Shown here one piece after another: positions 7,904 to 26,531 of a stretch of 35,228 nt of DNA. Both the position numbers and the translations under genes were made by a program. Each line of letters begins with the position of its first letter. Positions within the stretch are counted from its first letter, which is position 1. This DNA is from Comamonas sp. lk (lineage in GTDB: Bacteria > Pseudomonadota > Gammaproteobacteria > Burkholderiales > Burkholderiaceae_C): NCBI GenBank assembly GCA_945865425.1, contig CAMBFN010000005.1:1-35228 (forward strand), read 5' to 3'. The notes below the pieces were generated by a model that was not told the origin of the DNA, ran no database searches, and saw only the letters and a program-made list of their open reading frames with translations.

Positions 7904-7917
7904 GAGTTGTTAAAGTC

Positions 7918-11632: not shown

Positions 11633-12418
11633 GTGCAGGCCGCTCCCGCTGTGACACTTTCCATCGTGAGTCATGGTCAGTTCGCGCTGGTGCGTGCACT
11701 GCTTGGCGATATAGCTCGGCATTGTGGGACTAGCGCTTTGGAGGTGATCCTGACAGTCAACGTACCCGAGGACCTGCCCTCGCAATTTGGTGAGCTACCG
11801 TTCCCCGTGCGGGTGATACACAACGCCAAACCGCTCGGGTTTGCGAGCAACCACAACGGCGCCTTGCGCCAAGCACTTGGCACGCACGTTTGCGTTCTCA
11901 ATCCGGACGTGCGACTTGCGTCTGATGTGTTACCCGAACTTGTTAAATCGCTGGCCGATTTGTCTGTGGGGGTCGTGGCGCCTCTCGTCCTGGATGCCCT
12001 GGGTAAGGTGGAGGACAGTGCACGCAGCTTTCCGACGCCTTGGGTGATCCTGTTGAAAGCGCTAGGTGCAAACCAAAAAACGGATCAGGTCCGGTCCGCC
12101 GCGCCACATGACGTGGACTGGGTGGGCGGAATGTTCATGCTGATGCGTCGCGAGGTTTTCGACGCCCTTGGCGGTTTTGATGAGCGGTACTTCCTGTACT
12201 ACGAGGACGTAGACCTGTGCGCACGGATTTGGTTGGCGAACATGCGGGTAGTGCAGGTACGGCAGGTAAGCGTTATGCACCTAGCCAGGCGTTCCAGCCA
12301 TCGCAGCCTGCGCTATCTGGTCGTGCACCTCGCAAGCATGTGCCGATATTTCTTGTCCGCCAGCTTTAGGGCCACGCTGTGGCGATCCTCTGCACAGATT
12401 GGACTTCGCCGCCCATGA
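11633..12418 (+). CDS. Glycosyltransferase family 2, rhamnosyltransferase-like
   Basis: About 261 aa. It has LSIVSHGQFALVRALLGDI, NAKPLGFASNHNGALRQAL, VCVLNPDVRL (the NPDV form of the metal site), VGGMFMLMRREVFDALGGFD and YFLYYEDVDLCARIW. The GG-x-F..R-x-x-F-x-x-x-G-G-F-D-E..YYEDVDL block is the signature of the WbbL/rhamnosyltransferase-like GT2 branch. The start is uncertain: GTG 11633, two bases after the previous stop, is chosen by position; ATG 11603 would add ten residues overlapping the upstream gene. No dTDP-rhamnose genes are in the window, so a GDP- or UDP-deoxysugar donor is as likely. Confidence 0.88.
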   Translation: MQAAPAVTLSIVSHGQFALVRALLGDIARHCGTSALEVILTVNVPEDLPSQFGELPFPVRVIHNAKPLGFASNHNGALRQALGTHVCVLNPDVRLASDVLPELVKSLADLSVGVVAPLVLDALGKVEDSARSFPTPWVILLKALGANQKTDQVRSAAPHDVDWVGGMFMLMRREVFDALGGFDERYFLYYEDVDLCARIWLANMRVVQVRQVSVMHLARRSSHRSLRYLVVHLASMCRYFLSASFRATLWRSSAQIGLRRP

Positions 12419-13395
12419 GCGCCTTGGAGCAGCGCTTTGCAGGTGCCGTGCTGGTTACTGGCGCTAGCGGCTTCGTCGGCACGGCACTGCTCGCGAGGCT
12501 CGCCGCCGAGGGCTATAAGGCCGTAGCCGCACCGCGCCGTAGATTAGGCGTGTCTGAGCCGCCAGAGTCCGACCGTTATGACCATGTGAACATGTCGGGC
12601 TGTTATGGCCTGGTCCACCTGGCTGCGCGTGTTCATGTAATGCACGAGGCTGCTTTGGACCCGCTGGCGGAGTACCGAAAGGACAACGTAGAGGCGACTT
12701 TGCGCTTGGCCAGGCGGGCGGCGGCGGCGGGGATCAAACGTTTTGTTTACGTCAGCTCGATCAAAGTCAATGGTGAGTCGACGCTACCAGGCATGGCCTT
12801 CACTGAGGCGGACGCCCCACGGCCGCGAGGCCCCTACGCGATCAGCAAGTATGAGGCCGAGCTTGGCCTTATGGGCATCGCAGGTGAGACCGGGCTGGAG
12901 GTGGTGATCGTGCGCCCACCCCTTGTTTATGGGCCGGGAGTGCGCGCCAATTTCGCGGCCCTTGCGCGCGCAGTGCAGCGCCGTTGGCCCCTACCGCTGG
13001 GCGCGGTGCACAACAAGCGCAGCCTGGTCGCGGTGGATAACCTGGCTGACTTCATAGTCACCTGCCTCACCGCCCCCCAAGCAAGCAACGAGGTGTTCCT
13101 TGTTAGCGATGGTGAAGACCTGTCCAGCGCTGAGCTGTGTCGGGGCTTGGCGTATGCCGCTGGCGTGCCCCCGCGCTTGATTGCAGTGCCCTTGTGGCTG
13201 CTGCAAGGCGCCGCCGCGCTACTTGGGGCTAGGGCAGTTGTGGGAAGGTTGTGCGAGAGCTTGCAGGTCGATCCTGCTAAAGCACGTGAGCGCCTTGGCT
13301 GGGTGCCCCCTTTGGCGGTGCAGGCTGGGCTGGGGCGGGTCTACCGCGGCCGTGGCGCGCTGGCATCCGGGGCGCAGCAAAAGTGCGGTACCTAG
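12415..13395 (+). CDS. wbpV: UDP-4-keto-6-deoxy-HexNAc reductase, WbpV-like SDR
   Basis: A 326-aa extended SDR: VLVTGASGFVGTALLARL (NAD(P) loop), VHLAARVHVMHE, FVYVSSIKVNGES (catalytic Ser), GPYAISKYEAE (Tyr-x3-Lys), VRPPLVYGPGVRANF and LVAVDNLADFI. This motif set is that of WbpV/WreQ-type reductases, which act after WbpM to yield UDP-D-FucNAc or UDP-D-QuiNAc. WbpM is encoded at 24477. The start ATG 12415 overlaps the previous stop (ATGA). The coding sequence looks noticeably GC-richer than genes to the right by eye. It is the last intact gene before the scar; a decayed relative lies at 23479-23831. Confidence 0.83.
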   Translation: MSALEQRFAGAVLVTGASGFVGTALLARLAAEGYKAVAAPRRRLGVSEPPESDRYDHVNMSGCYGLVHLAARVHVMHEAALDPLAEYRKDNVEATLRLARRAAAAGIKRFVYVSSIKVNGESTLPGMAFTEADAPRPRGPYAISKYEAELGLMGIAGETGLEVVIVRPPLVYGPGVRANFAALARAVQRRWPLPLGAVHNKRSLVAVDNLADFIVTCLTAPQASNEVFLVSDGEDLSSAELCRGLAYAAGVPPRLIAVPLWLLQGAAALLGARAVVGRLCESLQVDPAKARERLGWVPPLAVQAGLGRVYRGRGALASGAQQKCGT

Positions 13396-13770
13396 ACTTT
13401 GCTGGCCTTACTCAACCTACGGGGCTGCGCGTGGAGGGTCGCCCACCCGCAAAACCGCATCGCTAGCGTCTGCGAACGCATTCTTTTTGGCAACTGCTTC
13501 GACCGTTTTGGCAGTATCCTTTTTGGCAACTTATACTATCGACGCTGCTGCGAATAGCCTTGCTCATATCTAAGGCGATTTGCTACGCCGTATTCGGCAC
13601 TACGCCATTGATTGTCGACTTCAGTCAGGTTTTGCCAGATTCAAGCATTACATTGGGGTATGTTCCCTAGTCTTACCTTTGATTTTTACTTTGGAAAGTT
13701 TCTTTTTTGTCGCTCGCAGCCCCAATGCGCATTTGCCAAGTCGATCAAGGCGACCGTTGGGTAGTGCCTC
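13396..13770. other. Non-coding stretch, probable recombination scar
   Basis: No frame here gives a convincing protein. An open frame near 13548-13670 yields a hydrophobic 40-residue stretch that I cannot place and that may be a gene remnant. A 13-base direct repeat, CTTTTTGGCAACT, occurs at 13483-13495 and 13519-13531. No terminator or promoter stands out. It interrupts an otherwise tightly overlapping gene order. Confidence 0.5.
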
Positions 13771-13903
13771 ATGAATGTGCCCGAGGTAATGGCTCAGAAC
13801 GAGCAAGTCAAGCCCAAGGTTGCAATCCTGATGGGCACTTTCAATGGGCAGGAACACCTGGGCCAGCAGCTAGACTCTATTGCTGCGCAGACTCACGCAA
13901 CTG
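13771..13903 (+). pseudogene. 5' remnant of a family 2 glycosyltransferase
   Basis: From ATG 13771 the first 44 codons read as a normal GT2 N-terminus: after a short polar leader comes KVAILMGTFNGQEHLGQQLD, then SIAAQTHA. Rhamnosyltransferase-like GT2 proteins normally continue with a Trp and a SDDGSTDGT-type donor-binding motif. Here the homology stops near 13900 and the frame runs on with unrelated residues to a stop at 14103. A full enzyme would be about 280-320 aa, so more than 80 percent of the gene is gone. It marks a deletion or replacement junction at about 13900. Confidence 0.75.
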
Positions 13904-14099
13904 GTAACTCTGGTTCGGAAGCGAACCTAATGGCTGTAATCGTCTTGACCGTATATAAGAATTTTGTTAGAGATGGCTTTGATGATCAGGTTGATCTCGA
14001 CTCCGACAATTGGCCTCGCTCATCTAAACCGTGCGGGATAGTTACTCAGCGCAGAGTGAAGGTTCATAGGTTCTTACATGTTAACTTTGCCGTTAAACC
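13904..14099. other. Non-coding junction sequence before the L-amino-sugar genes
   Basis: About 200 bases between the GT2 remnant and ATG 14100. I found no recognisable protein on either strand, no inverted repeat and no insertion-sequence end. The 14100 gene lacks a good ribosome-binding site (GCCGTTAAACC precedes it), so this stretch may carry a promoter I cannot identify. Confidence 0.45.
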
Positions 14100-14954
14100 A
14101 TGAAAGTAATGATCCTCGGAGTAACCGGCATGCTGGGCAATGCCATGTTTCGCATTTTATCAGAGCGTGGTGATCTGGCCGTTTACGGTACCGCGCGAAG
14201 CAATAGTGCCCGCCAGCACTTTTCGGACAATTTGTCCGCAGGGATCATCGTCGGCACTGATGTTGAAAACAGCGACACCCTGGTCAGAGCATTCACAGCT
14301 GTGCGGCCTGATGTTGTCGTAAATTGTGTCGGCTTGGTTAAGCAATTAGCTGATGCCAACGATCCTTTGCAAGCTGTCCCAATCAACACGCTGTTGCCGC
14401 ATCGGCTTGCAGCGCTTTGCCAGGCCACCGGCGCACGCCTTGTTCATATCAGCACGGACTGCGTATTCTCTGGGTCCAAAGGCAACTATCTTGAAACAGA
14501 CTTTCCAGATGCCTATGATCTTTATGGTCGATCCAAACTGCTGGGTGAAGTGGATTACCCGCATACCATTACTCTGCGGACCTCCATCATCGGCCATGAG
14601 TTGTCGGGAAATCGAAGTCTAGTGAATTGGTTTCTCGCACAGCAGGGAGTAGTCAAGGGCTTTACACGTGCCATTTTTTCTGGCTTGCCAACGGTCGAGC
14701 TAGCAACCGTCGTCCGGGACGTCGTGCTACCCTTCACGGAGCTACATGGTCTGTACCACGTCTCCGCAAAACCCATCAATAAGTTTGATCTGCTACAGAT
14801 GCTGGCACATGCATACGGAAAAAATATCGAAATCAATCCTTCCGAAGAACTCGTTATTGATCGCTCGTTGAATTCGGATCGTTTCAAAGAAGCCACAGGC
14901 TATACGCCACCTGAATGGCCAACACTCATTCAGCGCATGTATGATTTCAAATAA
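14100..14954 (+). CDS. qnlB: RmlD-like UDP-4-keto-6-deoxy-HexNAc reductase (L-QuiNAc pathway)
   Basis: A 284-aa SDR of the RmlD type: MILGVTGMLGNAMFRIL (cofactor loop), VVNCVGLVKQ, VHISTDCVFSGSKGNY (catalytic Thr/Ser region), YDLYGRSKLLGEV (Tyr-x3-Lys) and ITLRTSIIGHEL. RmlD proper reduces dTDP-4-keto-rhamnose. Here the gene directly precedes a FnlA-type dehydratase and a FnlC-type 2-epimerase, the arrangement of WbvB-WbvR-WbvD (QnlA-B-C). In that pathway this enzyme yields UDP-L-RhaNAc, later epimerised to UDP-L-QuiNAc. It is not the CapF/FnlB type, which is about 370 aa and carries a C-terminal cupin domain; that argues against L-FucNAc. Confidence 0.82.
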   Translation: MKVMILGVTGMLGNAMFRILSERGDLAVYGTARSNSARQHFSDNLSAGIIVGTDVENSDTLVRAFTAVRPDVVVNCVGLVKQLADANDPLQAVPINTLLPHRLAALCQATGARLVHISTDCVFSGSKGNYLETDFPDAYDLYGRSKLLGEVDYPHTITLRTSIIGHELSGNRSLVNWFLAQQGVVKGFTRAIFSGLPTVELATVVRDVVLPFTELHGLYHVSAKPINKFDLLQMLAHAYGKNIEINPSEELVIDRSLNSDRFKEATGYTPPEWPTLIQRMYDFK

Positions 14955-14970
14955 ATAAAAAGGATTAAAA

Positions 14971-15981
14971 GTGTTTAATGGAAAAATCTTGATGATTACG
15001 GGCGGCACAGGCTCATTTGGTAACGCCGTCCTCAAGCGATTCCTGGAAACAGATGTCAAGGAAATTCGCATCTTCAGCCGTGATGAGAAGAAGCAAGAGG
15101 ACATGCGGATCATTCTCAACAACCCCAAGCTCAAGTTCTACATCGGTGATGTCAGGAGCTATGATAGCGTTAGCGATGCCATGAAGGGTGTGAATTATGT
15201 CTTCCATGCTGCGGCACTCAAACAAGTGCCGTCGTGCGAGTTCTATCCCATGGAAGCGGTTCGCACCAATGTGCTGGGTGCTGAAAATGTCATGAATGCA
15301 GCGATAGCCAACCGGGTTGAGCGCGTCGTTTTACTCAGCACTGACAAGGCGGTCTACCCCATCAATGCAATGGGCATCTCCAAAGCCATGATGGAAAAGC
15401 TAATGGTCGCGAAGGCACGCATGCGCACAGAAGGCGAAACCGTGATTTGTGCCACCCGCTACGGCAATGTCATGGCATCGCGCGGCTCTGTAATTCCATT
15501 GTTTGTCAGCCAAATAAAGGAAGGCAAGCAATTGACCATTACAGATCCAGCTATGACACGATTCCTGATGTCGCTGGAAGACTCCGTGGATCTGGTGGCG
15601 TATGCATTTGAAAATGGTCAACAAGGCGATATTTTTGTCCAGAAGGCACCTGCATCGACTATCGAAGTATTGGCGCAGGCGTTGCAAGCACTATTTTCTA
15701 AGAAAGACAACATTCGCATTATTGGCACGCGCCATGGCGAGAAATTGTACGAGTCGCTGGTGGCACGAGAAGAGCTTGCCAGAGCCAGCGACATGGGTCG
15801 CTATTACAGGGTTCCGGCAGACAACCGCGATTTGAACTATGCAAAATTCTCCGTAGAAGGCGAACTCAACATTGCCACTTTTGATGACTACACATCTCAC
15901 AACACGACGCGATTGGATGTCGAGGGTGTCAAAAATCTGCTGCTCAAGCTTGATTACATTCAGGAGCAGCTAAATGCTTAA
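14971..15981 (+). CDS. qnlA: UDP-GlcNAc 4,6-dehydratase / 5-epimerase (FnlA/WbvB/CapE family)
   Basis: A 336-aa enzyme starting at GTG 14971 with AAGGAT upstream, a good ribosome-binding site. Motifs: LMITGGTGSFGNAVLKRFL, IFSRDEKKQEDMR, HAAALKQVPSCEFYPMEA, LLSTDKAVYPINAMGISK (the catalytic Met-x3-Lys replaces the usual Tyr-x3-Lys) and ATRYGNVMASRGSVIPLF. Enzymes of this family turn UDP-D-GlcNAc into UDP-2-acetamido-2,6-dideoxy-L-4-hexulose, the shared precursor of UDP-L-FucNAc and UDP-L-QuiNAc. It lies between the RmlD-like reductase and the 2-epimerase and overlaps the latter by eight bases. It is a soluble, single-domain protein, unlike the membrane-anchored WbpM at 24477. Confidence 0.92.
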   Translation: MFNGKILMITGGTGSFGNAVLKRFLETDVKEIRIFSRDEKKQEDMRIILNNPKLKFYIGDVRSYDSVSDAMKGVNYVFHAAALKQVPSCEFYPMEAVRTNVLGAENVMNAAIANRVERVVLLSTDKAVYPINAMGISKAMMEKLMVAKARMRTEGETVICATRYGNVMASRGSVIPLFVSQIKEGKQLTITDPAMTRFLMSLEDSVDLVAYAFENGQQGDIFVQKAPASTIEVLAQALQALFSKKDNIRIIGTRHGEKLYESLVAREELARASDMGRYYRVPADNRDLNYAKFSVEGELNIATFDDYTSHNTTRLDVEGVKNLLLKLDYIQEQLNA

Positions 15982-17095
15982 GGTCATGACCATCGTCGGT
16001 ACTCGACCAGAGCTAATCAAAATGTCAAGAGTGATCGCTGAATTTGATCGACATACACAGCATGTCTTGGTTCACACCGGCCAAAACTTCGATTACGAAC
16101 TTAATCAAATTTTCTTTGAAGATCTTGGCATTAGAAAACCCGATTATTTTCTTAAGGCTGTTGGTAATAACGCTGCCCAAACAATTGCGCGTGTGATTGA
16201 GAAAGCCGATGAGGTACTGGAAAAAGAGCAGCCCGAGGCCTTACTGCTTTATGGCGACACCAACTCATGCCTTTCGGTCATTGCCGCAAAACGCCGCAAG
16301 ATTCCTGTATTTCACATGGAAGCGGGTAACCGTTGCTTTGATCAGCGCGTGCCAGAAGAACTCAATCGCAAGGTTCTGGATCATCTGAGCGACATTAATA
16401 TGGTGCTCACCGAGCATGCTAGGCGTTATTTGCTGGCCGAAGGAATATCCGCTGACAAAATTATCAAAACCGGCTCCCACATGCAAGAAGTGCTTGAGCA
16501 CTACATGCCAAAAATTACAGCATCGGATGTGCTTGACCGACTCAACCTACAACCTCAAGGCTACTTCTTATTGAGCGCGCACCGTGAAGAAAATGTCGAC
16601 TCGACTGAAAACCTGCAAGACCTGCTGGATACACTGCAGGCTCTGGTTAAACAGCATGAAATGCCAGTCATCGTATCCACCCATCCGCGCACCAGACAGC
16701 AGCTGGAAAAGTTAGGGGTTGATGGTCTGAGTTCGAGAATCCAGTTCCTCAAGCCATTTGGTTTCTCTGACTACATCAAGTTGCAGATGGAAGCGTTCTG
16801 TGTCCTGTCTGACAGTGGCACCATCACTGAAGAAGCTTCGTTGCTGGGCTTGACTGCCGTGACAATTCGTAACTCACACGAACGTCCAGAGGGTATGGAC
16901 CAGGGCACGCTGATCATGAGTGGGCTGAAGTCGGAACGTGTTTTGGATGCTGTCCGTATTGTGACCAGCCAGGATCAGACCGGTGCTATTCGTCATGCGG
17001 TTCCAGACTATGAAGGCGGGCTGGTATCGCAGAAAGTTCTGCGGATTGTCCTGAGTTATGTTGACTTTATCAATCGCGTAGTTTGGTCGAAATAA
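15974..17095 (+). CDS. qnlC: UDP-HexNAc 2-epimerase, non-hydrolysing (FnlC/WbvD/WbjD type)
   Basis: A 373-aa enzyme of the WecB-like fold: MTIVGTRPELIKMSRVI, VHTGQNFDYELNQIFFEDL, LLYGDTNSCLSVIAAKR, HMEAGNRCFDQRVPEE, LSAHREENVD and VLSDSGTITEEASLLG. WecB itself carries HVEAGLR where this protein has HMEAGNRCFDQRVPEE, the variant typical of WbjD/FnlC/WbvD, which invert C-2 of 6-deoxy-L-HexNAc. With the RmlD-like reductase its product should be UDP-L-QuiNAc. The start ATG 15974 overlaps the dehydratase by eight bases. Its end marks the left side of the ABC-export cassette: related clusters usually continue directly with transferases such as WbuB, which here lie 5 kb away. Confidence 0.92.
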   Translation: MLKVMTIVGTRPELIKMSRVIAEFDRHTQHVLVHTGQNFDYELNQIFFEDLGIRKPDYFLKAVGNNAAQTIARVIEKADEVLEKEQPEALLLYGDTNSCLSVIAAKRRKIPVFHMEAGNRCFDQRVPEELNRKVLDHLSDINMVLTEHARRYLLAEGISADKIIKTGSHMQEVLEHYMPKITASDVLDRLNLQPQGYFLLSAHREENVDSTENLQDLLDTLQALVKQHEMPVIVSTHPRTRQQLEKLGVDGLSSRIQFLKPFGFSDYIKLQMEAFCVLSDSGTITEEASLLGLTAVTIRNSHERPEGMDQGTLIMSGLKSERVLDAVRIVTSQDQTGAIRHAVPDYEGGLVSQKVLRIVLSYVDFINRVVWSK

Positions 17096-17136
17096 ATCCG
17101 AATTTGGTGCAAGTAAAAAAATTAGTGAGAGAAATA

Positions 17137-18060
17137 ATGAGCACGAATAGCCAGATGTTGGACGCAATTTTCAATGAGGGTGAACGTCTGGTTCCGGGAG
17201 AAACTCACGGCCGAGATGAAGTGGTTCGTCACAAAAGCGGTTATAAACTGTTTCGCGATATTATCGAATCCGACATCTTACGAGATCCATCAATGCTTAA
17301 GGACGGCATCAAGATCCTGGACATTGGCTGTGGCACCGGGCACGGGACATTCATGCTTGGAGACATTTTAGGCGCCAAAATTGTAGGTATCGATTCAAGC
17401 ATCGAGTCAATTCAGTATGCACTAGGTAACTACGGCGCGAAAAACATTCAGTATGTACACGGCGACGCTGAGTCGTGGGTGCGCGAAGCTCATACATTCG
17501 ACTACGTTGTTTCACGCCATGCGCTGGAACACGTAGTGGACGGGCTGAACTTTGCGCTGAAAGTGTCCTGGCGGAAGCGGCTAATGGTAAACGTTCCATT
17601 TAACGAGGGGGACGGCAATGTTCATCACCTCGTTCACTGGATCAAAGAGCAGCATTTCGAGGCCTATCCAAATAAAGAATTCTTATACGAAGGACTCGAT
17701 GGCGTTACTGAATTGATGCGTACAGAGGAGAATCCGCCAAATTCGATACTTTGTGTCTCGAGTGCGCCCGCGCTCAACCCTGTTCGGGGGCTTTTCGAAT
17801 TTCCTATTGCGGCGTGGAAGCCCGAGTTTTTGCAAAACCTAGGTATTCAGGCTATTGAGTCGAATATTGAAGAGCGTGAGGGCGCTTTGAAACAGCTTGA
17901 GGCAATGCTAATTAGCAGACAAAGCGTTCTTGACGCGCACGAGGGCGCATTGAAACAGCTTGAGGCAATACTAATTGGCAGACAAAGTATTCTTGACGAG
18001 CACGAGCGCGCATTGAAGCAACTTGCGGACGCGCTTACTCTACTAAGGAAAAGTTCATGA
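17137..18060 (+). CDS. SAM methyltransferase with C-terminal coiled-coil repeats; candidate chain terminator
   Basis: 307 aa from ATG 17137, which has GAGAGAAATA just upstream; a longer reading from 17083 would overlap the epimerase. Residues 60-70 carry the SAM loop ILDIGCGTGHG, followed by IVGIDSSIESIQYA and VVSRHALEHVVDGL, a class I methyltransferase with an intact core. Residues 248-300 are two and a half copies of a 21-residue (three-heptad) unit, EGALKQLEAMLISRQSVLD and so on, predicting a short coiled coil. The gene overlaps the downstream two-domain GT2 (ATGA) and is followed by Wzm/Wzt. In E. coli O8/O9a the methyltransferase WbdD, joined to a coiled coil, caps the chain and sets its length. 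A similar role here is an inference; there is no kinase domain. Confidence 0.85.
   Translation: MSTNSQMLDAIFNEGERLVPGETHGRDEVVRHKSGYKLFRDIIESDILRDPSMLKDGIKILDIGCGTGHGTFMLGDILGAKIVGIDSSIESIQYALGNYGAKNIQYVHGDAESWVREAHTFDYVVSRHALEHVVDGLNFALKVSWRKRLMVNVPFNEGDGNVHHLVHWIKEQHFEAYPNKEFLYEGLDGVTELMRTEENPPNSILCVSSAPALNPVRGLFEFPIAAWKPEFLQNLGIQAIESNIEEREGALKQLEAMLISRQSVLDAHEGALKQLEAILIGRQSILDEHERALKQLADALTLLRKSS
17878..18036 (+). repeat. 63-base tandem repeat inside the methyltransferase gene
   Basis: Unit 1 is 17878-17940, unit 2 is 17941-18003 and a partial third unit of 33 bases is 18004-18036. Units 1 and 2 agree at 57 of 63 bases by my count. Each unit encodes 21 residues, exactly three heptads, with Leu at positions 4, 11 and 18 on one face. 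Gain or loss of units would keep both the frame and the coiled-coil register. Confidence 0.9.
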
Positions 18061-19817
18061 AACAACAGGCCACGCCAGATTTTCAGCCGCTGGTTTCAAT
18101 CGTGATTCCCGTTTACAACGGTGTCAACTACATGCGCGAGGCGATAGATAGTGCCTTGGCGCAGACTTATAAAAATCTGGAAATTATTGTCATTAACGAC
18201 GGCTCCAAAGACGACGGGCAAACCGACGCGATTGCCCAAAGCTATGGCGACAAAATCCGTTATTTCTGCAAGGAAAATGGTGGCTGTGCTTCCGCGCTCA
18301 ATCTTGGTATCGCCAATATGCGCGGCGCGTATTTTTCTTGGCTCAGTCATGATGACCGCTATATGCCGGAAAAGGTGGCTCGCCAAATCAATTTACTTGC
18401 CACATTGACTGATAAAGAAACCATTATTTACGGCGGATACGAAGTAATAAATACCGAATCACAACCACAATATACGGTGCGCCCGGACTCCGTTTTATCG
18501 CCGCAAAAACGCAATATTCCGCTACTACCCTTGTTGCGCGGTCTGATCCACGGTTGTTCGCTGTTGATCCCGAAAAAATATTTTGACGAAATCGGCGTGT
18601 TCGATGTAAACCTACCCTCCACTCAGGATTACGCCCTGTGGTTTGATATGTTCCGCGTTGCCTCTTTGCATTTTGACCCGGAAATTCTGATCCAATCGCG
18701 GGTGCACCCCGACCAAGGCACGAACAAAATTGACAAACATATTGACGAATGCAACGCCCTGTGGTGCGGTTTTTTAACCAAGCTCACCGAAGTTGAAATG
18801 ACCGCGATGGAAGGTTCACCCTATAACTTTTTAACCAGCACTGCTCAATTTCTCGCTGATACACCGTACAAAGATGCGCACCAACTGGCTCTGCAAATGG
18901 TCGAAGACTGCAAAGGCGGCACTAAAATTTCGGTCATCATCCCGTTTTATAACCACGTCGCCTGGACGATAGAAGCAATACGCAGTGTACAGACGCAAAG
19001 CTACCAACAATTTGAAATCCTGTTAATTGATGACGGCTCTACCGACGATTTGGCACCGTTGCTTGAATTCATCACAATCGATCCGCGCATCAAGTATTTC
19101 CGCCAAGACAACGGCGGGCCGGCCAAAGCCAGGAATAACGGCATTGATCGCGCAACGGGTAGTTATATTGCTTTTCTCGACGCCGATGACTTATTTTGTC
19201 CGGCGAAATTGGAAACCCAGCTTAGTTACATGCAAGAACGCGGTCTGGTGTTCTCGCATACCTCCTACTCTCGCATGGACTTGGAGGGCAATGTCATCGG
19301 ATCGATCTCCTCAGGCACTTTAAGCGGCAATGTTTTTCCCGGCATTATGGCTTCCTGCCCGATCGCTATGCCAACGGTCATGGCGCGCGCCGATATTTTC
19401 AAAAAAAATCGGTTTCCCGAGCATTTTGAAATTGCTGAAGACGTGTGTTTATGGATTTGCATCGCCAGCAAATACGAAATCGGTGGCATAGATGGCGTGT
19501 TTTCAAAAGTGCGCGTCGGGCCCAACACTGCCGCACTTAACAAGCGCAAGCAAGCGATGGGCTATGTCAATATCGCGTTTTTCATCATTCACGATCCTTA
19601 CCTTGCTCAATTCGAGCGGCAAATCAAATCGTTGTTGCTCGATACGACGGATATGTTTGCCAATGCTTTTTCACCACAACCGACAGCAGTGATTCCAGCC
19701 ACGGCGCCAAGTCAACCGACACCTCATCCATCGGCTTTGCGTAAAGTAGCCACCTCGCTCAAACATCACGGCCTGCGCGTTACTTGGCAACGCATCTACC
19801 GCCGGTTAGGGTGGTAA
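18057..19817 (+). CDS. Two-domain family 2 glycosyltransferase, candidate chain polymerase
   Basis: A 586-aa protein with two complete GT-A domains in tandem. Domain 1 (about 12-240): VSIVIPVYNGVNYMREAIDS, IIVINDGSKDDGQTD and FSWLSHDDRYMPEKV. Domain 2 (about 290-510): ISVIIPFYNHVAWTIEAIRS, LLIDDGSTDDLAPLL, AKARNNGIDRATGSYIAFLD and DADDLFCPAKLE. A Pro/Thr/Ala-rich linker (around 540-560) leads to a basic amphipathic tail ending RIYRRLGW. Multi-domain transferases that alternate linkages are typical chain-extending enzymes of ABC-exported glycans. Position between a candidate terminator and Wzm/Wzt fits that role. The start overlaps the methyltransferase stop (ATGA). Donors are unknown. Confidence 0.9.
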   Translation: MKQQATPDFQPLVSIVIPVYNGVNYMREAIDSALAQTYKNLEIIVINDGSKDDGQTDAIAQSYGDKIRYFCKENGGCASALNLGIANMRGAYFSWLSHDDRYMPEKVARQINLLATLTDKETIIYGGYEVINTESQPQYTVRPDSVLSPQKRNIPLLPLLRGLIHGCSLLIPKKYFDEIGVFDVNLPSTQDYALWFDMFRVASLHFDPEILIQSRVHPDQGTNKIDKHIDECNALWCGFLTKLTEVEMTAMEGSPYNFLTSTAQFLADTPYKDAHQLALQMVEDCKGGTKISVIIPFYNHVAWTIEAIRSVQTQSYQQFEILLIDDGSTDDLAPLLEFITIDPRIKYFRQDNGGPAKARNNGIDRATGSYIAFLDADDLFCPAKLETQLSYMQERGLVFSHTSYSRMDLEGNVIGSISSGTLSGNVFPGIMASCPIAMPTVMARADIFKKNRFPEHFEIAEDVCLWICIASKYEIGGIDGVFSKVRVGPNTAALNKRKQAMGYVNIAFFIIHDPYLAQFERQIKSLLLDTTDMFANAFSPQPTAVIPATAPSQPTPHPSALRKVATSLKHHGLRVTWQRIYRRLGW

Positions 19818-19820
19818 ACC

Positions 19821-20630
19821 ATGCAGATGCAGTTTGTCCCCAAAGCCTTAAGCGACATTTACCGCTACCGTAATCTGTTGTACCAACTGATAAAGCGCGA
19901 CATAACTTCGCGTTATCAAGGTACATTCATCGGCATTGCCTGGTCGTTCTTTTTTCCGCTACTCACGCTGGCGGTTTATGCGCTGGTCTTTGGGATCATC
20001 CTCACGCCGCGCTGGCCCAATATTTCCGACCCGTCCATGTTTACGCTGATTTTGTTTTCTGGACTTTTGGTTTTCAACTTTTTCGCCGAATGCGCGAGTC
20101 GTGCGCCCAGTCTGATAATCGCCAATGCCAATTACGTCAAGAAAGTCGTGTTCCCGGTTGGTTTGCTAATCTGGATACCGATCGGCACGGCGCTATTCCA
20201 CTTGCTGCTCGGCTTAGTCGCTTGGAGCTTGCTGGTCATTGTCCTTGGTGGGCAACTCCACTGGACACTCATGTTAATCCCCTTTGTTTTGTTGCCCCTC
20301 GTCATCCTTACCGCAGGTGTCAGTTGGTTTTTAGCGTCTTTTGGCGTATTCGTCCGTGATGTCGGCCAAGTAATCAGCGTTTCCGTGCAACTCTTGATGT
20401 ACCTTGGGCCTATCATTTATCCGCGCGAAGTGTTGCCCAAAGACTACCAATGGCTGATGAGCCTTAACCCTATAACTATCCCTGCGGAGCAATTTCGCAA
20501 CCTGCTCAACATGGGTGTGTCGCCGGATTGGCAATCCCTAGGTTATTACACGCTAGCTGCCTTAGCCATTGCCTGGCTTGGCAAACTATTTTTTGATAAA
20601 ACTCGTCATGGATTCGCCGATGTTATCTGA
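19821..20630 (+). CDS. wzm: Polysaccharide ABC transporter, permease subunit
   Basis: A 269-aa membrane protein of the ABC-2 type with about six helices, for example IAWSFFFPLLTLAVYALVFG and LLGLVAWSLLVIVLGG. The N-terminal RDITSRYQGTFIGIAWSFFF (an R-Y-x(3)-x-L/I-G-x-x-W pattern) and the mid-protein ASFGVFVRDVGQVISVSVQL are conserved in Wzm/KpsM/TagG permeases. It exports complete lipid-linked chains across the inner membrane together with Wzt. The start ATG 19821 is four bases after the GT2 stop (ATG 19827 is also possible); the end overlaps wzt by 23 bases. A Wzx flippase is encoded 13 kb upstream, an unusual combination. Confidence 0.94.
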   Translation: MQMQFVPKALSDIYRYRNLLYQLIKRDITSRYQGTFIGIAWSFFFPLLTLAVYALVFGIILTPRWPNISDPSMFTLILFSGLLVFNFFAECASRAPSLIIANANYVKKVVFPVGLLIWIPIGTALFHLLLGLVAWSLLVIVLGGQLHWTLMLIPFVLLPLVILTAGVSWFLASFGVFVRDVGQVISVSVQLLMYLGPIIYPREVLPKDYQWLMSLNPITIPAEQFRNLLNMGVSPDWQSLGYYTLAALAIAWLGKLFFDKTRHGFADVI

Positions 20631-21978
20631 AGAAAAACCACTCATTCGTGTCCATGGGTTAAGTAAGAGCTACGAGATTTACCCCAAGTCGGCTGATCGC
20701 ATAAAACAAAGCCTCTGGGGCAACAATAAACGCCGTTACTATCGCGATTTCCATGCCCTATCCCATGTTTCGTTTGAAGTCTATCGGGGTGCATCCTTTG
20801 CGGTGATTGGCAAAAACGGTGCAGGTAAAAGCACGCTGCTGCAACTGATTACCGGCACCCTGGAGCCGACCGCTGGCACAATAGAAGTCAATGGCAAAGT
20901 CGCCGCCGTACTCGAACTTGGCGCCGGCTTCAACATGGAGTATTCCGGGCGGGAAAATATAGAACTCTACTGCAACTTACTGATGATGCCACCCAGTGCC
21001 ATCAAAGCGCGTTTCGATCAAATAGTCGCCTTTTCCGAACTCGAAGATTTTATCGACCAGCCCTTAAAAACTTACTCCAGCGGCATGGTCGCACGCCTTG
21101 CATTTTCTGTCATAGCCCACGTCGATGCAGATATTCTAATTATCGACGAAGCATTGTCGGTGGGTGATGCTTCGTTCTCGCAAAAGTGTATGCGTTTTCT
21201 ACATGAATTCGTAAAACACGGCAGTATCTTCTTTGTCAGTCACGACCTTAGTGCAGTCAAACGCTTTTGCGACAGCGCTATGTGGCTAGAGCACGGCAAA
21301 GTACGCGCATTCGGCGAATCTGCAAAGGTATGCGATGCCTACATGGCTGACATATACCCCAACGAAACGCAGAGCGACGTCACCGGCAGCAAACCGGTGC
21401 TTACGGCGCTAGAGCCGGAAATGCGCGTGGTTAAACCCACGCATGCAAGCAATAGTGAAGCGGTAGACAAAGGCGCACAGCATCTTGCCGGCTTCAACTT
21501 TAACCCCAACTCTGCAGCCTTTGGCAATGGAGGTGCCGAAATCATTGGTGTCGGGTTAACAGGCATCGAGGGTCGCGCACTGAGTCATTGCGAAGGGCAG
21601 ACTTTGGTTCAGGTCAGCGTCAAAGCGCGCGCCATTCAAACCGTTGATCGCCCTATTCTTGGCTTTTTCATCAAAGACCGCCTTGGTCAAGCGCTATTTG
21701 GTGCCAACACTTATCGAGCCTATGAAGGACAAACTCCCAGCATTGCAGCCGGACAGACGGTTGAAGCGGTTTTTAGCTTCAAAATGCCTACACTCATGAT
21801 TGGCGATTATTCGGTCTGTGCAGCCATCGCGGATGGTACCTTGCAATCCCACACGCAACTTCATTGGTTGCATGACGCAGGCCTGTTCAAAGTCACTACA
21901 AGTAGCCTAGATGGGGTGCTGGTAGGCATACCTATGCAAGGCATTGAACTTAGGTGCATACAACCGGTTTTGCCCTAA
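20608..21978 (+). CDS. wzt: Polysaccharide ABC transporter, ATP-binding subunit with carbohydrate-binding domain
   Basis: 456 aa from ATG 20608 (ATG 20620 possible; an upstream reading from 20569 is unlikely). The nucleotide-binding domain has Walker A GKNGAGKST (68-76), the ABC signature region TYSSGMVARLAFS, Walker B ILIIDEALSVGDASF and the switch His in FVSHDLSAV. After a linker near residue 245-290, residues about 300-450 form an extra domain with FNPNSAAFGNGGAEIIGVGL and GDYSVCAAIADGTLQSHTQL, the Wzt C-terminal beta-sandwich fold. In E. coli O9a that domain recognises the terminal cap of the finished chain before export. Its presence here, next to a candidate capping methyltransferase, supports the same mechanism. 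The stop overlaps the GT4 remnant by one base. Confidence 0.94.
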   Translation: MDSPMLSEEKPLIRVHGLSKSYEIYPKSADRIKQSLWGNNKRRYYRDFHALSHVSFEVYRGASFAVIGKNGAGKSTLLQLITGTLEPTAGTIEVNGKVAAVLELGAGFNMEYSGRENIELYCNLLMMPPSAIKARFDQIVAFSELEDFIDQPLKTYSSGMVARLAFSVIAHVDADILIIDEALSVGDASFSQKCMRFLHEFVKHGSIFFVSHDLSAVKRFCDSAMWLEHGKVRAFGESAKVCDAYMADIYPNETQSDVTGSKPVLTALEPEMRVVKPTHASNSEAVDKGAQHLAGFNFNPNSAAFGNGGAEIIGVGLTGIEGRALSHCEGQTLVQVSVKARAIQTVDRPILGFFIKDRLGQALFGANTYRAYEGQTPSIAAGQTVEAVFSFKMPTLMIGDYSVCAAIADGTLQSHTQLHWLHDAGLFKVTTSSLDGVLVGIPMQGIELRCIQPVLP

Positions 21979-22253
21979 TGCCTATTGTTTTTTTCCGCAA
22001 CTTTAGTGCCTTTGGGCTTTACTGTATAAATCGAGGCGTAAATACGGGGCTACTTATCGAAATCACGCAGTTTGGCCTGCCAGTATTTGCATCTGAACCG
22101 GATGACGTGCGCGATGTGATTCAGCCTGCGGAAACTTTTGATCCAAACGCCCCTGTTTCAATTGCACGGGCAGTCAGGTACTTTCTCAAGAATCCTGAAC
22201 CTGCTGTTCAAATTCGTTCGGCTGAAGAATTTTTGGCAGAAATGCTCACATGA
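21978..22253 (+). pseudogene. 3' remnant of a family 4 glycosyltransferase
   Basis: An open frame of 91 codons from ATG 21978 to the stop at 22251-22253, overlapping wbuB by four bases. From about 22050 on it reads like the end of a GT4 donor domain: ITQFGLPVFASEPDDVRDVI, then ETFDPNAPVSIARAVRYFL. In intact enzymes this follows roughly 280 residues that are absent here. The first 25 or so residues after the ATG look unrelated. The remnant lies exactly where the Wzt gene ends, so the incoming cassette probably removed the 5' part. A short functional protein is conceivable but unlikely. Confidence 0.72.
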
Positions 22254-23482
22254 GAGTATTAATCTGGACACAGTATTTCTGGCCTGAAAATTTCCATATC
22301 AATACAGTCGCGCGTAGTCTCAAGGTAAAGGGAATTGAGGTCACGGTGTTGACCGGAAAACCCAATTACCCTGAAGGAAAAATATTCGATGGCTACAAGG
22401 CAGCGGGCATCCAGATGGAAGAGTATTCTGGGATCGAAGTGATTCGCATCCCCTTAAGGCAGCGAGGCAAAAATTCCGGAAAAGGAATGGCCCTTAATTA
22501 CCTTTCTTTCATAATTTCTGGCTATTTGTTCGCACCTTATGCTCTGCGTGGAAAAAAGTTTGATGCAGTTTTTGTTTATGCGCCTTCACCTCTACTGCAA
22601 GCACTTCCAGCGATTTATGTATCTTGGCTAAAGCGCGCGCCACTGGTGCTCTGGGTACAGGATATTTGGCCAGATGCGTTGGTGGCAACTGGGTTCATAA
22701 AAAATCGATGGATATTGGGTATGGTGGGGCTCGCCGTACGCTACATCTACCGGTTCTCTGATTCCATCCTGATTCAATCTGAAGGCTTTCGTGCGTCCGT
22801 AGAAAGCTGGACAAGCAAAAAGGAACGCATACGTTTTTTCCCGAATTCAGTTGAAGACGTATCACCTGATCTTACAAAGTCCACTGTAAATGTTCAGCTT
22901 GTAGAGGAAGTTGCAGCATGCTTCGCAGTCGTGTTCGCTGGAAACATTGGCAAAGCGCAATCTTGCGAAACAATTATTGAGGCGGCCAAATTATTGCAAA
23001 ACGTGGCTTGCATTAAGTTCTATTTGGTAGGTAGCGGCAGTATGGCTGATTCCATTCGTGAAAGCATTACGCACAGTGGATTAAAGAATGTGACGATGAC
23101 TGGTCAGGTGCCTGCTGAGGACATGTCTGTAATCTTTGCTTCGGCATCTGTTTTACTTTTAACCTTGCGAGATGATGCAGCTTTGTCATCAACTATTCCG
23201 TTCAAGCTTCAAAGCTACCTAGCAGCAGGAAAGCCGGTAATTGCTAGTTGTAACGGCGAGGCTGCGAGTGCTATAACCAAAGCAAACGCCGGGCTTGCTT
23301 GTTCGGCAGGTGACGCATCCGCATTGGCCGACGCGGTATTGAAACTTTTTCGGATGACACCCGAGGAACGCGTGGGTCTTGGGAAACATGGCCGCGATTA
23401 TTTTGAGGCGCATTACCGTTTACAAACCCGTGTAACGGAGCTAGTGACGCATTTCGACGATGTGGTTGCTCGGCATAGATGA
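22250..23482 (+). CDS. wbuB: Glycosyltransferase family 4, WbuB-like (L-amino-sugar transferase)
   Basis: A 410-aa GT4. It starts MRVLIWTQYFWPENFHINTV and carries TGKPNYPEGKIFDGY, VFVYAPSPLLQALPA and VLWVQDIWPDALVATG, a set typical of WbuB/WcaI-like proteins. The C-terminal half has VFAGNIGKAQSCETIIEAA and KLQSYLAAGKPVIAS. WbuB is commonly encoded beside the L-FucNAc or L-QuiNAc pathway genes and is thought to transfer that sugar. Here those genes (14100-17095) are separated from it by the export cassette. ATGA overlap with the GT4 remnant upstream; its own stop overlaps the start of the decayed epimerase. Confidence 0.9.
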   Translation: MRVLIWTQYFWPENFHINTVARSLKVKGIEVTVLTGKPNYPEGKIFDGYKAAGIQMEEYSGIEVIRIPLRQRGKNSGKGMALNYLSFIISGYLFAPYALRGKKFDAVFVYAPSPLLQALPAIYVSWLKRAPLVLWVQDIWPDALVATGFIKNRWILGMVGLAVRYIYRFSDSILIQSEGFRASVESWTSKKERIRFFPNSVEDVSPDLTKSTVNVQLVEEVAACFAVVFAGNIGKAQSCETIIEAAKLLQNVACIKFYLVGSGSMADSIRESITHSGLKNVTMTGQVPAEDMSVIFASASVLLLTLRDDAALSSTIPFKLQSYLAAGKPVIASCNGEAASAITKANAGLACSAGDASALADAVLKLFRMTPEERVGLGKHGRDYFEAHYRLQTRVTELVTHFDDVVARHR

Positions 23483-23831
23483 CCGGAGCGAATGTCGTGA
23501 GGGTTCTTTTAACAGGCACAAACGGTGTTGTAGGACAGGCGCTGTGTCGTCGGTTGTACCAAGACGAAAAGCATGAAGTCGGCGGAGCAGTAATAGGTGA
23601 TGTTAAATTTATTTCGGCATTGCGCACTAACTAATGGGTGAGATTCATTGATAAGCAAAATCTGCTTGCGCGTTGGATGGTGTGGATATTTATGTCCAAT
23701 TGGCTGATGGTGCGCATTTGATGCGATACACACATAATGATCCACTCACGGCAGACTTGGAGACCAAGAACTGCAGGACGCTGAATTCGGTACTGCAACC
23801 GGTGGTTGCGGGTGTCAGACGGTTAATTTAG
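23479..23831 (+). pseudogene. Decayed WbpV-like epimerase/reductase
   Basis: Two pieces in different frames show an SDR of the WbpV type. From ATG 23479 the first 51 codons give VLLTGTNGVVGQALCRRL, the N-terminal cofactor loop, before a stop at 23632. A second piece in another frame (about 23676-23831) gives IYVQLADGAHLMRYTHNDPL and VVAGVRRLI, matching VHLAARVHVM..DPLAEYRKDNVEATL..AAAAGIKRFV of the intact gene at 12415. The catalytic Ser, Tyr and Lys and the C-terminal two thirds are missing. ATGA coupling to wbuB and position before the initiating transferase show it was once an operon member. Frameshift plus truncation means it is not functional. Confidence 0.8.
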
Positions 23832-23897
23832 TTTGTCCCTCAAATCTCGCTGATCCGCTAAATCCTCACACGATGCGTCAATTTGCGTCTGCTTCAA

Positions 23898-24458
23898 ATG
23901 AAACGTGTAATCGATCTGATCCTAGTAATCACCGCTACCATTATTTTTCTTTTACCCCTGGCAACCATCGCCCTGGTCGTTCGCCTCACTTCCAAAGGCC
24001 CGGTCCTCTATTGGTCCGATAGAGTCGGCCGCAACAACCTGATATTCAGGATGCCAAAATTTCGCACCATGCGCACTGACACGCCAACGGTGGCGACCCA
24101 TATGTTGGATGATCCTGCGACTTGGCTCACCCCGGTAGGTGCATTCCTGCGCAAAAGCAGCCTCGATGAATTACCCCAGTTTTGGAGTATTTTGGTAGGC
24201 GACATGACTCTGGTGGGTCCCCGGCCAGCACTGTTTAATCAAGCGGATTTGATTGGCATGCGAACAGAGGTCGGTGTACATACCCTTACACCAGGTTTGA
24301 CAGGGTGGGCCCAGGTCAACGGGCGAGATGAGTTGCCAATTGCGCAGAAAGTTAAGTTTGATGCAGAGTACTTGTCGCGTCAAAGCTTTGCATTCGACAT
24401 CTATATCCTTTGGCTAACGGTGTTAAAGGTGGTACAGGGCGATGGTGTGACCCATTGA
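23898..24458 (+). CDS. Initiating sugar-phosphate transferase (PglC/WcaJ-type monotopic)
   Basis: A 186-aa protein, the minimal catalytic form of the polyprenyl-phosphate sugar-1-phosphate transferases. One N-terminal hydrophobic segment (IDLILVITATIIFLLPLATI) precedes the catalytic domain with FRMPKFRTMRTD, FLRKSSLDELPQFW, DMTLVGPRPAL and PGLTGWAQVNGRDEL. It should transfer a HexNAc-1-phosphate from a UDP-sugar to undecaprenyl phosphate, the first membrane step. Neighbouring WbpM and the WbpV-type reductase point to D-QuiNAc or D-FucNAc as substrate. ATG 23898 is preferred over TTG 23883 because MKRVIDL is the usual start. It lies 66 bases after the decayed epimerase. Confidence 0.92.
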   Translation: MKRVIDLILVITATIIFLLPLATIALVVRLTSKGPVLYWSDRVGRNNLIFRMPKFRTMRTDTPTVATHMLDDPATWLTPVGAFLRKSSLDELPQFWSILVGDMTLVGPRPALFNQADLIGMRTEVGVHTLTPGLTGWAQVNGRDELPIAQKVKFDAEYLSRQSFAFDIYILWLTVLKVVQGDGVTH

Positions 24459-24476: not shown

Positions 24477-26531
24477 ATGAATAACTTCTTTAACGAAATC
24501 TCGCAATCTGTTGTGGCCCTGCCGCGAGAGGCCAAACGCATTATTGTTTTGGTCGTTGACATTAGTTTTTGTGTGCTGTCTGTTTGGTTAGCATATTACT
24601 TACGTTTGGGCGAATTTATTCCGTTGGCGGGTAGGTCTATGTTGGCCGCTGCGGTGTCGATTTCACTGGCCATTCCCCTATTTATTATTTCAGGGCTCTA
24701 CCGCGCAATATTCCGATATAGCGGCCTACCTGCCATCGTTTCTTTGGTGAGGGCAATCGGTGTATACGGATTGATTTATGCAGCGATATTTACTGCGATC
24801 GGGTTTGATGGTATCCCTCGTACGGTTGGACTGATCCAGCCCATGCTGCTTTTGCTCTTTGTGGGCACGTCGCGCGCGTTTGCCAAGCTCTGGCTCGGTG
24901 GTGAGTATCAAAGTCGATGGAAACGTGCCGCCTTGCCACAGTTACTCATTTACGGTGCTGGAAGCGCCGGTAGGCAGTTGGCTAACGCGATGGCGGTAAG
25001 CACAGACATTAGCTTGGTCGGTTATCTAGATGATGATGATCGTTTGCACGGCCACGTGTTAAATGGGTTACCCATTTTTGACCCACGCGATCTCCCTATG
25101 TTGGTGACCCAAAGCAAAGTAACAAATATATTGATGGCTATGCCGACCATTTCCAGGCAACGTCGAAATGCAATTCTTGAAGCCTTAGCGCCTTTACACC
25201 TTTCGGTACGAACTTTGCCAGAAATTAATGATCTCGCTACCGGTAAGGTCAGTCTCAGCGATATACGTGAGTTGGATATTGATGACTTGCTTGGCCGGGA
25301 GCCGGTCAAACCCAATGCGCTATTGATTAACCGAAACACCCAAAACAAAACAGTTTTAGTAACTGGTGCTGGAGGCAGCATAGGCAGTGAACTATGCCGA
25401 CAAATTTTGCAAGCAAAGCCCAAGCGATTGTTGTTGGTAGACATGAGTGAATTTGCTTTGTACCAAATTCATTTGGAGTTACTCGCCTTTGTAAATCAGA
25501 GCCAAAATTCCCCAAGTGATTCTTTAGATGGTGAATTAGTTGCACAGCCAATCGGTGTATCAGAAGACTTGACTATTGCATCAGAAATCGTTCCATTGCT
25601 GGCCTCAGTCTGCGACGAAGTACGCATGCAAGAGATCATGGATACCTGGCGCCCGCACACGGTGTACCACGCGGCCGCTTACAAGCACGTGCCCTTGGTA
25701 GAGCACAACCCCGCCGAAGGCGTGCACAACAATGTGTGGGGTACGCGCGTTTGTGCAGAAGCAGCCGTGCGCAATGGGGTGCGCAATTTTGTCCTGATCA
25801 GCACTGATAAAGCCGTACGCCCGACCAACATCATGGGCGCTAGCAAGCGTTTAGCGGAAATGGTGTTGCAGGCTTTGGCTGAGCTTAACCCGGCGGTGAT
25901 GGCTCAGGGTGGCTCTGCACCCACCTCGCGCACTTGTTTTTCGATGGTGCGTTTTGGTAACGTGTTGGGTTCCAGCGGTTCAGTCGTGCCGCTTTTTCGA
26001 GAGCAAATTCGAAATGGTGGTCCCATCACCCTGACCCATGCGGACATTACCCGTTTTTTCATGACGATTCCAGAAGCTGCTCAGTTGGTGATACAGGCCG
26101 GAGCTATGGCTACGGGTGGTGATGTGTTTGTGTTGGACATGGGTCAGCCGGTGCGCATTGTGGATCTGGCACGCCGTATGGTCGAGCTTTCGGGTCTGAG
26201 CGTGAGAGACGAAAACAATCCGGAGGGAGACATAGAAATCACCGTCACTGGCCTGCGCCCTGGCGAGAAGCTGTACGAGGAATTGTTGATCGGTGAAAAC
26301 CCGGTTCCCACGCAGCACCCTCGCATCATGAAAGCCCAAGAGCCCTTTTTGCCTTGGTCCCAACTGCAGCAAAGCCTGGGTGCACTACACATTGCCAAGG
26401 GCGTTAACGATGTGGCGCTAATACGCGGCTTGCTGCAGCAATTGGTATCGGGATACCATCCCACCGGCGAGGTGGTCGATTGGGTGTACCTGGCCCAAGA
26501 TCGCGAGGCGGTGGCGGTGGGGGGCGAGTGA
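24477..26531 (+). CDS. wbpM: UDP-GlcNAc 4,6-dehydratase, membrane type
   Basis: 684 aa, a typical WbpM/CapD length. Four N-terminal membrane helices (about 20-125) are followed by a first Rossmann domain with LIYGAGSAGRQLANAM and a second, catalytic one with VLVTGAGGSIGSELCRQIL, AAAYKHVPLVEHNPAEG, ISTDKAVRPTNIMGASKRLA (the Met-x3-Lys active site) and VRFGNVLGSSGSVVPLF. It converts UDP-D-GlcNAc to UDP-2-acetamido-2,6-dideoxy-D-xylo-4-hexulose, which a WbpV-type reductase finishes. It is the last gene of the rightward locus and ends one base before the convergent MFS gene, leaving no room for a separate terminator. Confidence 0.96.
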   Translation: MNNFFNEISQSVVALPREAKRIIVLVVDISFCVLSVWLAYYLRLGEFIPLAGRSMLAAAVSISLAIPLFIISGLYRAIFRYSGLPAIVSLVRAIGVYGLIYAAIFTAIGFDGIPRTVGLIQPMLLLLFVGTSRAFAKLWLGGEYQSRWKRAALPQLLIYGAGSAGRQLANAMAVSTDISLVGYLDDDDRLHGHVLNGLPIFDPRDLPMLVTQSKVTNILMAMPTISRQRRNAILEALAPLHLSVRTLPEINDLATGKVSLSDIRELDIDDLLGREPVKPNALLINRNTQNKTVLVTGAGGSIGSELCRQILQAKPKRLLLVDMSEFALYQIHLELLAFVNQSQNSPSDSLDGELVAQPIGVSEDLTIASEIVPLLASVCDEVRMQEIMDTWRPHTVYHAAAYKHVPLVEHNPAEGVHNNVWGTRVCAEAAVRNGVRNFVLISTDKAVRPTNIMGASKRLAEMVLQALAELNPAVMAQGGSAPTSRTCFSMVRFGNVLGSSGSVVPLFREQIRNGGPITLTHADITRFFMTIPEAAQLVIQAGAMATGGDVFVLDMGQPVRIVDLARRMVELSGLSVRDENNPEGDIEITVTGLRPGEKLYEELLIGENPVPTQHPRIMKAQEPFLPWSQLQQSLGALHIAKGVNDVALIRGLLQQLVSGYHPTGEVVDWVYLAQDREAVAVGGE

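Follow-up and report, generated by a model that had tools for sequence, protein, structure and literature searches.

A coiled-coil methyltransferase, two-domain GT2 and ABC exporter gene set in Comamonas sp. lk, probably part of a larger qnlBAC-linked O-antigen block

Do four tightly packed glycan genes in a Comamonas genome form a self-contained unit, or are they one part of a longer pathway? We addressed this question for a 35,228-nucleotide stretch (hereafter the window) of contig C5 (CAMBFN010000005.1) from a metagenome-assembled genome (MAG) of Comamonas sp. lk. The genes lie between qnlC and a wbuB-like gene and encode a methyltransferase (MT) that ends in a coiled coil, a glycosyltransferase with two family 2 domains (GT2-GT2), and the Wzm and Wzt subunits of an ABC exporter, the latter with a carbohydrate-binding domain (Table 1). 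All four frames are open and domain matches confirm these assignments, which a first-pass annotation had already made; Wzm and Wzt pass the Pfam cut-offs for PF01061, PF00005 and PF14524. The genes are real and probably functional. That annotation proposed a self-contained, transferable export cassette inserted between qnlC and wbuB, a claim that our comparisons do not support. The four genes probably build, cap and export the chain within a larger qnlBAC-linked O-antigen block of the ABC-transporter type, and the capped, ABC-exported O-antigen pathway is a known kind of system.

Evidence for a larger block comes from relatives of the MT. A genome-collection scan limited in reach to close relatives returned 37 pattern matches. 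These yielded four relatives, one each in a Pseudomonadaceae MAG (locus L025), Pseudomonas brassicacearum 38D7 (L026), P. costantinii LMG 22119 (L027) and a MAG with the label Campylobacterales (L028). Each of the four loci has the order qnlC-MT-GT4-GT4-Wzm-Wzt, with qnlC immediately before the MT (GT4, family 4 glycosyltransferase; the GT4 families were checked in L026). The qnlA gene precedes qnlC in each, represented by its last residues only in L025, whose contig begins inside qnlA, and close qnlB matches occur in L026 and L027 only. A 3.7-kb piece of window DNA from qnlB into the MT, spacer included (14172-17880), gives a one-piece 76% alignment to L026. This match stops where the coil repeat starts, and farther on only short pieces of wzm and wzt align; matches to the other three loci stop at 17764-17847. 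Protein identities to L026 are 73% for QnlB, 85% for QnlA, 86% for QnlC, 77% for MT, 46% for Wzm and 57% for Wzt. Because the qnlC-MT linkage is found in every MT locus and the DNA match runs through the spacer, the left border of the proposed cassette cuts a conserved unit. The qnl naming is provisional, as QnlABC (L-QuiNAc) cannot be separated here from FnlABC (L-FucNAc).

The MT start had been placed near 17096. It is most likely the ATG at 17137, 41 bases past qnlC, a start that is conserved in L025-L028. The qnlC-MT spacer is 41 bases in the window and 39, 41, 42 and 35 bases in L025 to L028, respectively; since its length varies among relatives, the frame upstream is not kept, and a TTG start at 17083 was rejected for this reason.

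The loci of P. brassicacearum and P. costantinii share homologous qnlBAC, MT, Wzm and Wzt genes with the window in the same order, but have two GT4 genes in place of GT2-GT2 and are followed not by wbuB, as in the window, but by genes for an acyltransferase-like protein (assigned by eye), a GT2 and a YfhO-like protein. The P. costantinii coil is also far longer. The L026 copy sits downstream of cmk and rpsA, which we take to be the usual Pseudomonas O-antigen site. On these comparisons, the window appears to be one mosaic version of the block, which resembles Pseudomonas in qnlBAC and the MT catalytic domain, departs from it in the coil and glycosyltransferase part, and has a truncated GT4 at its far junction.

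The right-hand side was examined in genus-mates, where wbuB-like genes were found at E <= 1e-90 in 10 of 103 genomes, our own included. Several of the locus stretches used in the gene-order counts stop at contig ends, and one (L070) is a 3.7-kb contig only. The four genes had been said to interrupt an expected order qnlBAC-(GT4)-wbuB; that order without an ABC module occurs in none of the nine other same-genus wbuB loci. Four genus-mates (L071-L074) have no module and carry wbuB directly after qnlC, so the interval can be empty. In three others (L068-L070) wbuB is upstream of the qnl genes, with an intact GT4 directly before it in L068. In the two remaining loci, L066 and L067, a different ABC module occupies the corresponding interval, with the order qnlC, 2OG-Fe(II) oxygenase, two GT4s, a protein of 333-335 residues (that of L067 without a Pfam match), Wzm, Wzt, GT2, intact GT4, wbuB; their GT2 matches domain 1 of the window GT2-GT2 at 41-48%. 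The placing of a GT4 beside wbuB was borne out, as its 3' end persists in the window as a stub that keeps the last 65-66 residues, is 52-56% identical to the intact wbuB-adjacent GT4s of L066, L067 and L068, and overlaps wbuB by the same 4 bases as in those loci. Gene order thus suggests that an ABC module in the qnlC-wbuB interval is common to the window and two genus-mates, and that the GT4 was truncated in the line of the window.

Composition and gene order were also compared in view of the cassette proposal. GC content is 0.491 in the qnl genes, 0.494 in the four genes and 0.501 from wbuB to wbpM, with no step at 17.1 or 22.0 kb; a compositional island confined to that interval was rejected, and the low-GC stretch spans ~13.5-25.5 kb as a whole. 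Codon-usage distances from the four genes to other groups of the cluster (0.080-0.089, versus 0.056-0.087 among the others) place them slightly farther away, with no significance figure attached. The order MT-GT2GT2-Wzm-Wzt was found in none of the four MT loci, none of eight other same-genus Wzt loci (of nine passing E <= 1e-80 among 103 genomes) and none of 11 other class-level Wzt loci (passing E <= 1e-110 among 369 genomes). We consider insertion of a transferable cassette very improbable. The slightly larger codon distances, the GT4 stub at the right-hand edge and the empty interval of L071-L074 would suit it, as would the fact that none of 99 other sampled genus genomes has a close MT copy. 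Tight packing would suit it too, and was confirmed for MT and GT2-GT2 (4-base overlap) and for GT2-GT2 and Wzm (3-base gap), but the Wzm-Wzt overlap is probably 23 or 11 bases (Wzt start at 20608 or 20620), more than the 4 bases given as the maximum. Against insertion stand the qnlC-MT linkage and the DNA match across the border, the four-gene order seen in no other locus read, the other ABC module of L066 and L067, the uniform GC content and the grouping of both Wzt domains described below. Nor is the set self-contained, as it comes without initiation and sugar-nucleotide genes.

Wzt, unlike Wzm, groups by linkage to the qnl genes. Its best Protein Data Bank (PDB) sequence relative is 8dku (E 5e-71, two stretches). 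Wzt and Wzm trees were built from 24 sequences, comprising the window, the four MT loci, two qnl-linked genus-mates, 11 class-level loci and six other genus loci. The seven qnl-linked Wzt proteins fall on one side of the tree with support of 99/96 for the sugar-binding domain and 93/91 for the ATPase domain; the 17 on the other side are classed as not qnl-linked in the sense that no qnlA or qnlC match lies within the available stretch, and several of their contigs are short. The same grouping appears in only 18% of bootstrap trees for Wzm, and the window Wzm is on a long branch with no supported place. Sugar-binding domain identity of the window Wzt is 50-55% to the MT-locus proteins and 36-43% to the class-level ones; for the ATPase domain the figures are 63-65% and 48-56%, and for Wzm 45-47% and 34-46%. 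The idea that the sugar-binding domain follows the MT alone was dropped, as L066 and L067 belong to the Wzt clade yet have no MT match. A clade that tracks qnl linkage offers a testable guess at the ligand recognised.

The MT ends in a tail of 70 residues, predicted by AlphaFold2 as a single helix (residues 237-306). The predicted local distance difference test score (pLDDT) of the helix is 81-86 at residues 251-300, 55 at 241-250 and 70 at the end, and the catalytic domain is poorly modelled (five sequences; mean pLDDT 54.9). In the best of seven registers, the hydrophobic fraction of the tail is 0.70 at a/d positions versus 0.32 elsewhere. Tail length beyond residue 237 is 70 in the window and 94, 101, 290 and 59 in L025 to L028, and the best self-similarity periods are 21, 28, 28, 42 and 28. 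A heptad pattern by itself favours periods in multiples of seven, and the control was therefore 2000 shuffles that preserve the make-up of each heptad position; the observed score was reached in 4 (window), 17 (L025), 69 (L026), 0 (L027) and 8 (L028) of these. Only in the window is the repeat also present in DNA, as a 63-bp tandem repeat whose units 1 and 2 are alike at 86%, and units 2 and 3 at 82% over 38 bases; in the tails of L025-L028 it was seen in protein and no DNA-level tandem repeat was found. The MT gene is sparsely distributed. At E <= 0.001 there is a match in 68 of 100 sampled genus genomes (own included), of which the best besides the gene itself scores 38.9 bits; at E <= 1e-40 only its own genome matches among 299 of the family, and among 348 in the genus of L026 the matches are the L026 and L025 genomes, the L027 genome not being among them.

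The GT2-GT2 protein is the candidate polymerase. Its best PDB sequence relatives are the chondroitin synthases 2z86 and 2z87 (E 1e-21, two stretches), and a repeating disaccharide would suit two GT2 domains equally as well as the homopolymer-like product first suggested. At E <= 1e-60 it was found in 2 of 399 order genomes, its own and a second (G181) with matches to domain 1 only, in two places. Both matching genes of G181 lie within 4 kb upstream of qnlB (L081, 2343-6999), one directly upstream and the other ~2 kb further, a placement that hints that the GT2 type of domain 1 may use the qnl sugar.

Together with domain families and the PDB sequence relatives of Wzt and GT2-GT2, published systems, by analogy, support the roles of candidate terminator, polymerase and exporter given to these parts. 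Coiled-coil terminators are described as a hallmark of the terminated ABC strategy (PMC11231755). In the E. coli O8 and K. pneumoniae O5 systems (WbdD, WbdA, Wzm, Wzt), as in the window, there is a separate coiled-coil terminator, a multi-domain polymerase and an ABC exporter with a carbohydrate-binding domain (PMC3482155, PMC11231755), and WbdD of O8 is a methyltransferase only, with no kinase domain (PMC3482155). The window differs in its GT2-GT2 polymerase, in its linkage to qnlBAC, wbuB and a Bac_transf initiator, and in that the PDB matches of its MT include none under the name WbdD. E. coli O101/O162 (Onovel32), likened here by description and not by sequence comparison, also combine an N-terminal methyltransferase and C-terminal coiled coil with wzm and wzt, and their glycosyltransferases apparently have two catalytic sites (PMC13168486); O-methylation there needs an intact MT with its coiled coil (PMC13168486). 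K. pneumoniae O4 and O7 likewise have a terminator within a coiled-coil protein, but their polymerase modules are distributed differently among proteins, and the O4 chain ends in a Kdo-type sugar and that of O7 in methylphosphate, through a methyltransferase-kinase (PMC11231755). No kinase domain of the O9a type is among the 11 Pfam matches of the window MT or among the 25 of 27 NCBIfam matches listed; the O7 kinase domain was itself unannotated.

By analogy with these systems, the sugar transferase (23898) and WbuB (22250) would start a lipid-linked adaptor, on which GT2-GT2 could extend the chain in the cytoplasm, perhaps with the L-amino sugar from QnlABC. The MT, kept off the polymerase by its coiled-coil tail, would methylate the non-reducing end of a chain that has reached sufficient length, and growth would stop. 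The C-terminal domain of Wzt may then recognise the finished end, as reported for O9a, where recognition by this domain is cap-dependent (PMC3482155), and Wzm/Wzt would export the chain for ligation to lipid A-core. The ruler model behind this scheme draws on studies of WbdD of E. coli O9a and WbbB of K. pneumoniae O12, and coil length is reported to set chain length in WbdD (PMC5082667, PMC11231755); control of chain length by the coil of the window MT would follow by analogy.

Several observations weigh against this capped O-antigen pathway. Although a role in a terminated ABC pathway is likely on analogy, a comparison with the PDB copy of WbdD gave no support for placing the MT in the WbdD sequence family, as none of the 24 PDB sequences that match it at E <= 0.01 carries that name. 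The window MT is without an end segment common to L025-L028, and its last 20 residues carry a charge of +1 versus a basic +3 to +5 in those relatives; the helical moment of its best 18-mer is higher (0.60), but the charge there is -2. As the C-terminal region of WbdD serves as membrane anchor and recruits the polymerase (PMC11231755), the window ruler may be altered or impaired. The GT4 beside wbuB is truncated, and a Wzx-like flippase gene (MatE, E 3e-8; 5700-7109), which shares the cluster with the ABC exporter, suggests that export has, or once had, another route. The cluster has no recognised Wzy, which would suit the pathway: the genes searched received other assignments and Wzy_C has no match on the contig, although many Wzy proteins evade this model. 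Finally, the MAG (2.12 Mb, 183 contigs) is 72.7% complete, which leaves room for misassembly or absent genes.

Other explanations were weighed on the same evidence. The MT might modify internal residues or the adaptor sugar, or the glycan might be a capsule, exopolysaccharide or S-layer-type polymer, since cap chemistry and destination rest on analogy here. We regard this as unlikely, since the coiled-coil tail varies in length, a Wzt_C domain is present, the L026 copy lies at cmk/rpsA, and coiled-coil MT proteins act as terminators in the literature (PMC11231755, PMC13168486). The locus could also be a decaying mosaic or a partial assembly artefact with no working capped-export pathway: three gene remnants lie within ~10 kb (13771, 21979 and 23497), the Wzx-like gene lacks a recognised Wzy, the MT tail is changed and the MAG is fragmented. 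The open frames of all four genes, and the parallels to the qnlC-MT and GT4-wbuB junctions in other genomes, make decay or artefact improbable as well, although no parallel to the MT-GT2, GT2-Wzm or Wzt-stub junctions was found in the loci read. An O-antigen block with a terminated ABC pathway is the reading we prefer.

Ordinary as a cassette, the locus has its value as part of a comparative set, with a tail-length series and a qnl-linked Wzt clade. Its relatives share the qnl genes upstream and have a homologous exporter and an MT with a closely related catalytic domain, yet their tails span 59-290 residues, which provides a natural test of the coiled-coil ruler model. We tentatively suggest, as a possibility that is open to considerable doubt, that the qnlBAC-linked MTs form a natural O-antigen ruler ladder, in which the coil gains and loses length, between 59 and 290 residues, through in-frame duplication of heptad-multiple units, and the MT catalytic and Wzt sugar-binding domains stay with the L-amino-sugar pathway as polymerase glycosyltransferases are exchanged. 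We rate this lower because the DNA-level tandem repeat occurs in the window only, its relatives showing the repeat in protein alone. If the idea is correct, repeat expansion would drive the evolution of chain length, and what the Wzt domain recognises would be determined by the qnl sugar and the cap. In the literature searched, where most subscription papers were outside coverage, we met no account of naturally varying repeats in coiled-coil terminators.

Table 1. Gene block and remnants in the window, with the evidence for each assignment
Feature	Position	Strand	Evidence
GT2 remnant (N-terminal ~40 codons), upstream of qnlB	13771..13900	+	residue matches to GT2 genes of Wzm/Wzt loci
qnlB/fnlB-like reductase	14100..14954	+	73% to L026, 74% to L027; rmlD-like, under NCBIfam cut-off
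qnlA/fnlA-like UDP-GlcNAc 4,6-dehydratase/5-epimerase	14971..15981	+	TIGR04130 FnlA 567 bits (cut-off 730); 85% to L026
qnlC/fnlC-like 2-epimerase	15974..17095	+	PF02350; 86% to L026
41-base spacer	17096..17136	+	alignment: close likeness to P. brassicacearum L026
Class I SAM methyltransferase (MT) ending in a coiled coil, candidate chain terminator and ruler	17137..18060	+	Methyltransf_25, E 7e-15
63-bp tandem repeat (21 codons, three heptads), 2.5 copies, in MT tail	17867..18025	+	
GT2-GT2 protein, candidate polymerase	18057..19817	+	two Glycos_transf_2 stretches, E 3e-59
Wzm, ABC transporter permease	19821..20630	+	PF01061 (ABC2_membrane), E 8e-24
Wzt, ABC ATPase with C-terminal carbohydrate-binding domain	20608..21978	+	PF00005 (ABC_tran), PF14524 (Wzt_C, E 1.2e-29)
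GT4 gene 3' stub	21979..22253	+	PF00534 positions 109-167 of 172, E 5e-5, 23.3 bits (cut-off 26.4)
wbuB-like GT4, candidate adaptor transferase	22250..23482	+	PF00534/PF13692; WcaI-family subfamily model under cut-off
Decayed, frame-shifted NAD-dependent epimerase gene	~23497..23853	+	34-35.6% to epimerase genes of L068, L071, L072
Initiating sugar-phosphate transferase	23898..24458	+	PF02397, E 5e-55
WbpM-like nucleotide-sugar dehydratase	24477..26531	+	PF02719, E 8e-117

The names WbuB and WbpM, and what these names and Qnl/Fnl imply about function, are presumed to apply here. The first-pass annotation had overlooked the GT4 stub, the 63-bp repeat and the two decayed genes at 13771 and ~23497-23853. 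The degenerate stretch at 13400-14100 holds the GT2 remnant, which is matched over 28-29 residues by GT2 genes of L090, L091 and L094 (55-71%) and over 61 residues by L092 (39%); these loci (L090-L092, L094) belong to genus-mates, and the open reading frame at 13771-14103 has no Pfam match. The decayed epimerase lies where L071, L072 and L074 carry an epimerase gene between wbuB and the sugar transferase; an intact epimerase of the window is at 12379-13395. On another contig (C23), a Wzy_C protein has neighbours that, on inspection by eye, look like an ABC exporter on one side and a GT2 on the other, a setting that would suit a ligase.

Searches of plasmids and phages gave distant matches. Among plasmids, the MT matched 22 records, none at 80% cover, GT2-GT2 two distant records, and Wzt 55 records, all below 60% identity. 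Wzt also matched 13 phage records, all below 60% and two at 80% cover, none of them annotated among the 10 of 13 matches listed. A record named Pseudomonas phage (OQ572406.1, hit H26) encodes a Wzt-like protein (34% over 94%) and may be bacterial DNA. A scan of viral contigs with the MT alignment gave 30 stretches and no relative.

Four other loci (L048, L049, L053 and L092) have a distant MT-domain match (29-33%) just past Wzt, the same kinds of parts in another order. The same-genus locus L091 has two Wzm/Wzt pairs within 10 kb (7497-9618 and 14883-16632), the second Wzt with a match confined to residues 8-303. Insertion mutants of wzt in P. brassicacearum WCS365 are reported to have changed biofilms and to have lost plant protection (PMC12919676).

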